The notes below the pieces were generated by a model. That model was not told the DNA's origin. It did not search any database and saw nothing but the letters and a program-made list of their open reading frames with translations. From Thermococcus sp. 18S1 (GTDB taxonomy: Archaea > Methanobacteriota_B > Thermococci > Thermococcales > Thermococcaceae): a DNA stretch of 64,000 nt. The position numbers and the translations under genes were made by a program. The stretch is taken from the NCBI RefSeq assembly GCF_012027645.1, contig NZ_SNUU01000001.1, positions 186,001 to 250,000 of the forward strand, given 5' to 3'. Below, piece after piece: positions 24,754 to 31,116 of the stretch (its first letter is position 1; each line of letters opens with the position of its first letter).

Positions 24754-25020
24754 ATGGAAATCGAGGCAATACTCCTCGTCTGGGGCGTCAGGGACGAGGT
24801 TCTGGAAAAGCTCCCCGTCGAAGGGTACTGGCTCTACGGGGAGTACGACTTCATAGCCAAGCTGGAGTTTCGGGACGAATTCGAGATGGAGGAGTTCATG
24901 AGAGACCTCAAGAGTGTAATCCACGGCGGAACCTTCAAGCTCATGCCGGCCATGATCTCGGCCGTTAAAAACGGAGAGGAAACAAGCGTAGTCGAGGGCC
25001 TCAAACCTTCGGCCCCATGA
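24754..25020 (+). CDS. Stand-alone Lrp/AsnC-like RAM domain protein
   Basis: An 88-residue protein resembling the C-terminal amino-acid-binding (RAM) domain of Lrp/AsnC regulators: AILLVWGVRDEVLEKL, GYWLYGEYDFIAKLEF, then a FKLMPAMISAV strand. The DNA-binding half is absent. Such free domains may bind an effector or join with a full regulator. The start is uncertain: GGAGGTG touches ATG 24754, and ACTTTTATTC (about 24712-24721) suggests a nearly leaderless mRNA. It overlaps the convergent ASCH gene by 20 bp. Confidence 0.68.
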   Translation: MEIEAILLVWGVRDEVLEKLPVEGYWLYGEYDFIAKLEFRDEFEMEEFMRDLKSVIHGGTFKLMPAMISAVKNGEETSVVEGLKPSAP

Positions 25021-25570
25021 TGCCCTTCATTTTCAGCTCCCTGTAGGCCCTCCTGAGGGCGTCCCTAATCAGGTACCTCTTGTTCATGCCCCCGAGCCTG
25101 TGGGCAGCCTTTCTCAGACTTCCCGCCTGGAGAAAGAGTTCGAGGAGCTTTCTGTCCTCGTCGGAGAGGTCGAGGTGCTCAAGGGCCTTCTCGGCTATCT
25201 CCAGGGGAAGGTTGCCCTCGTAGGCGTAGTCCGAGCTCATAACTGGCTTCTCAAAGCGCTCCACGAGACGGAAGACTATAACGTGGGCGATGGAGTCGTC
25301 GTTAACGTACTTGTAGTGGCTTTTGAGGGCCCTTATCAGCTCCTCCCTGCTCGAAAAACCGTCCAGAAAAGCGTCCTCGTCGGTAAGCTCCCCAACCGTT
25401 TTACTCTCAACCCTCTCGATAACCGCCTTCCCTATCGCGTAGCCGCCCGAGTGAAGAAGGACTTCGTCGCCGGGCTCCAGATTCGGCTTTCTTCCAAGCC
25501 TCACCGTTGCCCGCTTCTTTCCGCTCAATATTGCCTCGGCGTAGCGTCCGTCGAACTCCAGGTGGCGCAC
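25001..25570 (-). CDS. ASCH-domain protein with C-terminal helix-turn-helix-like part
   Basis: A 189-residue protein. The N-terminal ASCH domain (PUA-like, expected to bind RNA) has the family motif SGKKRATVRLG and HSGGYAIGKAVIERV. Residues 110-189 are helical, with LQAGSLRKAAHRLGGMNKRYLIRDALRRA looking like a helix-turn-helix. GTG 25570 preceded by GGTGATCC is preferred to GTG 25579. It follows a second, shorter ASCH gene by 5 bp, so the two are co-transcribed. Target unknown. Confidence 0.8.
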   Translation of the reverse strand: MRHLEFDGRYAEAILSGKKRATVRLGRKPNLEPGDEVLLHSGGYAIGKAVIERVESKTVGELTDEDAFLDGFSSREELIRALKSHYKYVNDDSIAHVIVFRLVERFEKPVMSSDYAYEGNLPLEIAEKALEHLDLSDEDRKLLELFLQAGSLRKAAHRLGGMNKRYLIRDALRRAYRELKMKGIMGPKV

Positions 25571-25575
25571 CGGGA

Positions 25576-25920
25576 TCACCGCCCGCTTTTCTCACCCACG
25601 AGCTTGAACCTTATGGCGATGACGCCGTAGCGGTTCTCCTTCCACTTCGGGTACATGCCGTGGAATCTCTTCACCGCCCTCTCAAAGCTCGGCTCATCAG
25701 GAAAGATTTTCTTTATGGGCTCTTCCCTCAGAACCTGACGGAACGTCTCGTATTCCTTCACGCCCGTGATCACGGCAGGAACCTGATCGTTAAAGATTAT
25801 CTTGTCGCCGGGCTTCATTCCCCGGAACTGGGGGTAGGCAACCCTGACCTCTATCCGCTTTTCCCCGGACTTTATGTAGTCCAGGTATTCCTCGCGAACC
25901 CTCAACCTGTACACTCTCAT
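25576..25920 (-). CDS. Small ASCH-domain protein
   Basis: A 114-residue single-domain ASCH protein with the GxKxxExR motif [10 protein letters not shown], the loop [15 protein letters not shown] and a final [12 protein letters not shown] strand. The fold is PUA-like, and RNA binding or RNA hydrolysis has been proposed for related proteins. ATG 25920 follows GGTGAAG. It lies directly upstream of a larger ASCH gene; the pair may act on the same RNA class. Confidence 0.82.
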
Positions 25921-26010
25921 CTTCACCACGACCCCGATTCCACTCCCCGCTTAAAAGGCTGATGGAAACTTTTAAATCCTTTAGCACCGAATTAAACTCA
26001 GGTGTGAGAG

Positions 26011-28246: not shown

Positions 28247-29100
<854 letters not shown>

Positions 29101-29123: not shown

Positions 29124-29133
29124 GTTTATAAAC
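29124..29133. promoter_or_regulatory. Palindromic TATA box shared by 5S rRNA and the divergent gene
   Basis: GTTTATAAAC is a perfect 10-bp palindrome. Its centre is 28-29 nt from the 5S rRNA 5' end (29100, minus strand) and 28-29 nt from ATG 29157 (plus strand). Both spacings are right for TBP/TFB-directed initiation. No other TATA element is seen in the 56-bp gap. Confidence 0.7.
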
Positions 29134-29156: not shown

Positions 29157-30692
29157 ATGGAGAGGGAGATACTGGAACTGCTTAGGCTGGAGAGGGCAAG
29201 GGAGCCGCTGAGTCCAAGCAGACGGCTCAGGGAGTTTCAGATGGAAGTCCAGCGACTTAAAAACGGTGAGGACGTCGAGATAACCGGTTTTCTGTTGGGT
29301 AGAAAGCCCCCCAACGCCCCGAGGGACGCCGTATACTACCTCCTGTCCCCCCTCTCCCCCTCGGAGCTGGCGGGACTCGGGAGGGACGAGTTCAGAACGT
29401 ACCTGGTGATACGGGCAACGGAGAGCACGAGGGTCAGCGGGGATGTCAGGCCAAGAAGCTACGTCGTGGTGAATGGAATCGCGGACGCGTACCACTGGGG
29501 AAACATGAGGATGATCCACGCCGCCTCAATCGAGGGAAGGGACTATTCTGAGTACTGGAAGGACTACCGGGAGTTCGCGCTGAGCAGGCGCGAGGTGGTT
29601 GACCTGTTCGAAAGGACCATCTACGTCCGCAAGGACATGATGAAGGCCCTCATCTATTCACTCTACGGCGTCCCGTACATCCTCTGGGGAAGCGAGGCCC
29701 CCCAATGGGGCGAGGGCTTCGAGTACACCGTCTACAAGTACGGGGAAAACATGGGGCTCCTGGCCCTCTGGAAGGCCCTGAAATACTTCCAGTCGAGCCT
29801 GCCGTGGGAGGTCCGCCTGAGGAAAGAGACCGCCCTTGAGATAATCGACCCGGTACTGGACATCGATTTCCGGATACGCAACCCCAACAGAACAGACATG
29901 AAATACTACATCCCCTCCTCGAGGAAAGGACTGACGGGAGTGCCGAAATGGAGCGAAGGGCATATAGTAAACAAAAGGGCGATCGGCCTGTTGCCCCAGG
30001 ATATCGAGGCAAATCCAACCGATCCCCTGGCAAAGATTTCTGAAACGCCCTTTGTGCTCATGCCGTGGGAGGAGAAGCCATACTTCGAGGAGAACAGGGA
30101 ATTCCGCCAGCTGATTCCAAACCTTCTCGTGACGATTTTCACCAACAGGGAACGTTATCTATCAATGGGCCACGGGGAGCTGAGCAAACTGCGGGACGAG
30201 CATCTGAAATGGAGGAGATGGGGCAGGAAAGAGTACAGCGAAACGTTTGAGAAGCTGACGACACCCAGCGGCGTGCTTCACCTGGGGATGAGGTTCTATC
30301 TCGACAGCAGGCTCTTTGGGGCCATCACCCGGTTCTACGGAAAGGTAACAGATAGGGCGGTTAAAGACGTCAGGGAGATCGATGATACGATACTGAACGA
30401 GTGGAACGTGGTTTTTGGCGAGCTCGTTAGAAAGCGGCCCGAGGCCATAATGAAGCTGGAGAAAGAATATGAGCGCTACATTCCCTACGATGTCCGTGCC
30501 CAGAAGGCCCTCCAGATCTTCCACGACCTGGCCTCCACAAGCCCCCTCGGAGAAGTTACCCGGGAGGAGTTCCTGAGCGAGATGCTGAAGAACGGCTTTA
30601 ACGAACGGGACGCCCTCAATCTAATTGAAAAGTTTATAGCCACCGGCTACATTTACGAGCCGTTTCCTGGAAAGCTGATACTGATACGGTGA
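29157..30692 (+). CDS. MCM-like architecture protein without Walker motifs (unknown function)
   Basis: A 511-residue protein. An N-terminal helical part is followed by an OB-fold-like stretch (about 40-125: DVEITGFLLGR, YLVIRATESTRVSG, YVVVNGIADAY). A central region has VRKDMMKALIYSLYG, reminiscent of the MCM segment before Walker A. The C-terminus (about 455-511) is a winged helix with EVTREEFLSEMLKNGF and FIATGYIYEPFPGKL, very like the end of archaeal MCM. No GxxGxGKS or DExx motif is present, so it should not hydrolyse ATP. The mRNA is probably leaderless. RNase P protein 4 follows 4 bp later. Confidence 0.75.
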   Translation: MEREILELLRLERAREPLSPSRRLREFQMEVQRLKNGEDVEITGFLLGRKPPNAPRDAVYYLLSPLSPSELAGLGRDEFRTYLVIRATESTRVSGDVRPRSYVVVNGIADAYHWGNMRMIHAASIEGRDYSEYWKDYREFALSRREVVDLFERTIYVRKDMMKALIYSLYGVPYILWGSEAPQWGEGFEYTVYKYGENMGLLALWKALKYFQSSLPWEVRLRKETALEIIDPVLDIDFRIRNPNRTDMKYYIPSSRKGLTGVPKWSEGHIVNKRAIGLLPQDIEANPTDPLAKISETPFVLMPWEEKPYFEENREFRQLIPNLLVTIFTNRERYLSMGHGELSKLRDEHLKWRRWGRKEYSETFEKLTTPSGVLHLGMRFYLDSRLFGAITRFYGKVTDRAVKDVREIDDTILNEWNVVFGELVRKRPEAIMKLEKEYERYIPYDVRAQKALQIFHDLASTSPLGEVTREEFLSEMLKNGFNERDALNLIEKFIATGYIYEPFPGKLILIR

Positions 30693-30696
30693 TACC

Positions 30697-31116
30697 ATGA
30701 GCAAGAAAAAATTCATCCGCCAGAGGGAGCAGAGGGAAAAGCGCAGAATCGCCCGCGAGAGGATTGAGACCCTTTTCACCCTCGCAGAGAGGGTCTTCCC
30801 CTACGAGCCAGAGCTGGCCAACCGCTACGTTGAGATAGCCCTCGCTGTCCAGCAGAAGGCCAAGATAAGGATGCCCAGGAAGTGGAAGCGCCGCTACTGC
30901 AAACGCTGCCACTCCTTCCTCGTCCCGGGGGTCAACGCCAGGGTGAGGCTCAGGAACGGCCACGTTGTCATCAAGTGCCTCAATTGCGGCCACATCATGA
31001 GGCACCCGTACATCAGGGAGCAGAAGGAGCGTAGAAAAGCCTCCCTTACAGAGAAAACCGTCGAAAATGGACGGGGAACCAAAGCACCGTCAGAAAATCA
31101 TTCCAATTCCCGCTGA
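30697..31116 (+). CDS. rnp4: Ribonuclease P protein component 4 (Rpp21)
   Basis: A 139-residue basic zinc-ribbon protein, a subunit of the RNase P holoenzyme that trims tRNA 5' ends; it pairs with Rpp29. The helical N-terminus (FIRQREQREKRRIARERIETL) and the four zinc Cys (CKRCHS and CLNCGH) are typical. GGTGATACC precedes ATG 30697. The gene follows the OB/winged-helix gene by 4 bp. The low-complexity tail after residue 115 overlaps the convergent cyclase gene by 19 bp. Confidence 0.95.
   Translation: MSKKKFIRQREQREKRRIARERIETLFTLAERVFPYEPELANRYVEIALAVQQKAKIRMPRKWKRRYCKRCHSFLVPGVNARVRLRNGHVVIKCLNCGHIMRHPYIREQKERRKASLTEKTVENGRGTKAPSENHSNSR

Follow-up and report, generated by a model that had tools for sequence, protein, structure and literature searches.

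What might a protein that resembles the replicative helicase MCM, but appears to have no ATP site, be doing between a 5S rRNA gene and the RNase P protein gene rnp4? The question arises from a window of 64,000 nucleotides of the Thermococcus sp. 18S1 genome (G000, 1.99 Mb), in which the first-pass annotation had described an MCM-like protein without Walker motifs at this place. Matches to Rfam RF00001 and PF04032 confirm the placement: 56 bp separate the start of the open reading frame (ORF) from the divergent 5S rRNA gene, and 4 bp lie between its stop codon and the start of rnp4 (Table 1). Our favoured explanation, which we consider probable on the sequence evidence, is that the gene encodes a pseudo-MCM, an MCM-helicase relative that keeps an OB domain, the AAA+ junction and the C-terminal winged helix but, by its sequence, lacks the ATP site. 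Such a protein would most likely be a non-catalytic adaptor touching nucleic acid and/or a partner complex via its OB and winged-helix ends, by analogy with the role ascribed to MCM pseudo-ATPases in eukaryotes.

Table 1. Features of the pseudo-MCM locus and of the encoded protein (positions in the window)
Feature	Position	Strand	Evidence
5S rRNA gene, divergent from the MCM-like gene	28979..29100	-	Rfam RF00001, 85.9 bits
Palindromic TTTATAAA, probable shared TATA box	29125..29132	.	Sequence; ~28 bp from the 5S 5' end and from the ATG
Gene for 511-aa MCM-like protein without ATP site	29157..30692	+	511 codons, ATG start
OB-type domain, ~residues 35-126 (approximate boundaries)	29259..29534	+	Sub-threshold PF01336; residues 93-126 match MCM
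VRKDMMKALIYSLYG, residues 157-171, aligned with MCM GHRTVKKGIALALFGG at the AAA+ module entry	29625..29669	+	hhalign
Stretch at the Walker A place, ~residues 188-214, motif absent	29718..29798	+	Alignment, 40-member motif survey
Central region, ~residues 215-390, without recognisable AAA+ similarity	29799..30326	+	No significant MCM match
C-terminal winged helix, archaeal MCM type, residues 445-511	30489..30689	+	Profile score, PF21120, AlphaFold
rnp4, RNase P protein Rpp21/Rpr2, probable operon partner	30697..31116	+	PF04032 E 1.3e-20, conserved adjacency

The single 511-aa sequence finds no match in Pfam, NCBIfam or the PDB, and its similarity to MCM is visible only with a profile of the family. 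Searched with that profile, the PDB returns T. kodakarensis MCM3 first (E 0.0065) and then two archaeal MCM winged-helix structures, while in the phylum the next matches are canonical MCM genes, with E down to 8.7e-9 over query residues 331-507. Beyond Thermococcaceae, the phylum matches are limited to the C-terminal part of the profile and, in the part of them that was checked, fall in MCM genes, to judge from the length of the frames and their coincidence with PF00493 matches. Profile-profile comparison with an MCM profile built from cellular and plasmid MCMs yields one collinear alignment, of residues 93-510 with MCM 212-683 (E 1.5e-7). The N half scores 45.4 against MCM, compared with a maximum of 28.5 for 150 column-shuffled profiles, and the C half scores 65.4 against a shuffled maximum of 19.8 (again 150 profiles); reversed-profile controls reach 14.3 and 14.8 for the N and C halves. 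Residues 93-126 fall on the last part of the OB domain in MCM (27.9 versus a decoy maximum of 20.3), and sub-threshold matches to the OB family PF01336 (tRNA_anti-codon) occur in 16 of 39 members. The junction segment 128-235, which bears ALIYSLYG and runs through the Walker A position, matches MCM in the correct order and above all shuffled controls (20.2; decoy maximum 14.8). Judged by these profile comparisons, the protein is an MCM relative.

At the C-terminus, the winged helix scores 67.9 against archaeal MCM (P 2.4e-14; shuffled maximum 20.5), PF21120 (MCM_WH_arc) gives sub-threshold matches in 10 of 39 members, and AlphaFold block means are 71-95 for about residues 446-511. Of the features proposed in the first pass, the MCM-like segment and the winged helix both surpass their shuffled-profile controls. 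The AlphaFold models are of poor quality: the full-length one, computed from a five-sequence alignment, had a pLDDT of 41.5 and was left out of the fold search, and the one of the C-terminal part reached 60.3. Foldseek with the latter gave nothing below E 0.078, the matches being generic winged helices, among them those of P. abyssi Rpa2, and unrelated proteins. The presence of Rpa2 is relevant to a different ancestry, in which the protein would not be MCM-derived at all but would be an Rpa2-like OB and winged-helix protein, or an unrelated protein with an acquired MCM-type winged helix. Archaeal Rpa2, of about 270 aa, likewise has an OB domain in front of a winged helix that bears an IYEP-G motif. 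However, its OB domain does not match residues 1-240 of the family (17.4, P 0.089), unlike the MCM OB end and the junction that follows, and the family winged helix scores 34.7 to Rpa2 as opposed to 67.9 to MCM. Rpa2 ancestry was rejected on these two grounds, and we regard an origin outside MCM as very improbable.

The absence of nucleotide-binding motifs, also part of the original description, extends to the family: Walker A (G-x4-GK[ST]) and the Walker B, sensor-1 and arginine-finger patterns (DE-x-DK, [AG]A[AG]NP, SRFD) occur in 0 of 40 members. At the ATP site, FEYTVYKYGENMGLLALWKALKYFQSSLP is the approximate counterpart of a 24-letter stretch of the source genome's own MCM. The MCM P-loop domain PF00493 has no match in the 511-aa protein at E up to 10, nor is it among the families found in 39 members. 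Past about residue 235 the core has no MCM signal of its own; residues 286-375 give no significant match to MCM, and the lid segment alone scores 13.2, which is below the decoy maximum of 18.2 and not significant. The roughly 150 central residues without AAA+ resemblance may be what is left of an eroded MCM motor or may have taken its place, and with the MCM signal confined to the ends, while middle and lid are silent, a chimera of MCM ends and another core could still account for the protein. The lack of an ATP site argues strongly against a role as an ATP-driven helicase, which is very unlikely. Kinship with the replication helicase combined with loss of its nucleotide-binding motifs, as first suggested, is upheld by profile-profile tests with controls.

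Compared with archaeal MCM (T. kodakarensis MCM3; the source genome's 684-aa ORF, L051), the family protein has the OB end, AAA+ junction and winged helix in common and in equal order, but it lacks Walker A and B, sensor 1 and SRFD, its core is unrecognisable, and it is 511 rather than 684 aa long. The nearest known kind would be the eukaryotic MCM pseudo-ATPases MCMBP and MCMDC2, a parallel by description that does not imply family-level homology. MCMBP (PF09739) is likewise MCM-like without Walker A and promotes MCM2-7 assembly (PMC9018068). Binding to MCM is known for MCMBP and hypothetical for the pseudo-MCM, whose membership of the MCMBP family was rejected, as PF09739 finds nothing in the source genome at E up to 10. 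MCMDC2 is likewise an MCM protein without conserved Walker A and B motifs, and it has been proposed as a modulator (PMC5070785); it is a meiotic recombination protein and is likened to the pseudo-MCM by description only.

These parallels bring up a role as a replication modulator, in which the pseudo-MCM would bind homohexameric MCM (or GINS/GAN) and alter its assembly, loading or activity, as an archaeal functional parallel of MCMBP. Both ends of the protein are akin to MCM, dead MCM relatives of eukaryotes act on MCM complexes, and the MCM winged helix is an interaction and regulatory site (PMC11686378). We consider this role possible, with a somewhat less than even chance, given that replication genes were not found among the recurrent neighbours, that the MCMBP profile is silent, and that MCM is retained in genomes where the pseudo-MCM gene has been lost, so that the pseudo-MCM is not needed for MCM function. 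In the open-access literature, we found no earlier description of an inactivated archaeal MCM; the MCM pseudo-ATPases described there are eukaryotic, and one in Thermococcaceae would be family-wide. Because some Thermococcaceae are genetically tractable, they would allow regulation by a dead MCM relative to be followed where the partner is one homohexamer.

The genomic neighbourhood points mildly in another direction. The rnp4 gene adjoins the pseudo-MCM gene in nearly all loci of genera g1, g4 and g5 and in both loci of g3, and 5S rRNA lies upstream in most loci, usually divergent; the two loci L036 and L038 have it in the orientation of the gene. TTTATAAA is found within 120 bp upstream of the gene in 41 of 50 loci and is a probable two-way promoter giving near-leaderless mRNA. 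From the shared TATA box and the gene spacing, we infer a probable link between its expression and the 5S promoter and rnp4. Among g2 loci, L045 has TGT ahead of the gene and L046 has other genes there, in L050 RtcB comes directly before it, and in L048 (g6) it starts about 105 bp past a probable 23S rRNA 3' end, a match at the contig edge with E 0.0092 and below the gathering score. Taken together, the neighbours (5S, RNase P, RtcB, TGT and probably 23S) suggest stable-RNA maturation, although they are few and not all independent.

A stable-RNA factor that uses its OB and winged-helix ends to hold 5S rRNA, pre-tRNA or RNase P and to aid maturation would fit the close and conserved linkage with rnp4 and 5S, the RtcB, TGT and 23S neighbours of the other loci, and the membership of the OB matches in the tRNA_anti-codon family. 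The MCM fold would then have been recruited to RNA work, and a replication helicase would have turned RNA factor. We nevertheless judge this somewhat unlikely. PF01336 takes in DNA-binding as well as RNA-binding OB domains, the 5S link is explicable as the sharing of a strong promoter, RtcB adjoins rnp4 also in g3 genomes without the gene, and no RNA gene neighbour is present at L046 or, save a distant tRNA, in the examined stretch of L049. MCM ancestry favours an architectural or regulatory role and the neighbourhood mildly favours RNA processing; neither is decisive. A combination of both, in which an archaeal MCM pseudo-ATPase governs the assembly or loading of homohexameric MCM and couples MCM to ribosome and tRNA production via the shared 5S promoter and the rnp4 operon, appears highly unlikely.

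The phylogenetic spread, which the first pass had proposed to follow up, is wide within the family Thermococcaceae: the gene is matched in 79 of 94 genomes (66 of the 74 good ones) and in all six genera, the double matches of two genomes (G003, G048) each representing gene pieces on different contigs. Named homologues come from Thermococcus and Thermococci MAGs. The protein family is large and uncharacterised, and no Pfam or NCBIfam model recognises it. With dN/dS of 0.06-0.17 between close pairs of gene copies and a lowest identity among members of about 35%, it is under purifying selection yet fast-evolving; the occurrence in 79 of 94 genomes and these dN/dS values indicate a real gene. Several complete genomes are without it. 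Only two of the nine g3 genomes carry the gene; rnp4 was recovered in six of the rest, and the ORF directly before it there is RtcB, as its sequence shows. The idea that this ORF is a highly diverged copy was rejected, as it has no family match. In single-contig genome G035, the 5S-rnp4 interval is occupied by an unrelated 327-aa ORF without Pfam match (L139:445-1425). The absence from g3 genomes and G035 implies that the gene is dispensable at the species level, whereas its lack in draft genomes G062 and G063, which also yielded no rnp4, may be an assembly gap. Four of the RtcB ORFs before rnp4 (L144, L145, L146, L149) start with an apparent intein end (HNFIANG-x-VVHN).

A full-length homologue, 26% identical (pairwise E 5e-32), is encoded by the 103-kb T. 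nautili plasmid THER333_p, with a hypothetical protein on either side, of which the second has weak C2H2-like matches. This homologue opens the reading that the chromosomal protein is a domesticated descendant of an MCM-like protein of mobile elements, of the THER333_p kind, and may still serve an element role, such as interfering with plasmid replication. MCM genes of unusual length are numerous in the genomes examined, and a reviewer in PMC3307487 attributes the spread of MCM copies to integration. We think a mobile-element origin unlikely, however, as no viral or phage relatives of the family were found, the chromosomal tree mostly follows genera, and the plasmid row is a single, very long branch, hence the direction of transfer is not given by the tree. 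Two g4 loci (L012, L026) are placed among g1 rows, and g1-like gene versions in g4 suggest transfer within the family.

Further observations concern the same genomes. By identity to the window copy, L012, L013 and L026 carry a g1-like version (59-64%), and other g4 loci are diverged. On the plasmid (L107:6455-9730; NZ_OX281346.1), the upstream neighbour of the homologue is a protein of 436 aa that overlaps it, and the downstream neighbour is one of 156 aa with weak matches of C2H2 zinc-finger and Hfq-like type; these neighbours were rejected as additional MCM-like parts, since neither gave a match. The source genome holds a second MCM-like ORF of 853 aa with an intact-looking P-loop (L052:250-2811; G000:C1:1102342-1104900; PF00493 E 2.1e-30), which is probably element-borne because 40 other family genomes have only MCM-type partial matches to it. 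In the window itself, two adjacent small ORFs at 25001-25929 on the minus strand look by eye like ASCH-type proteins.
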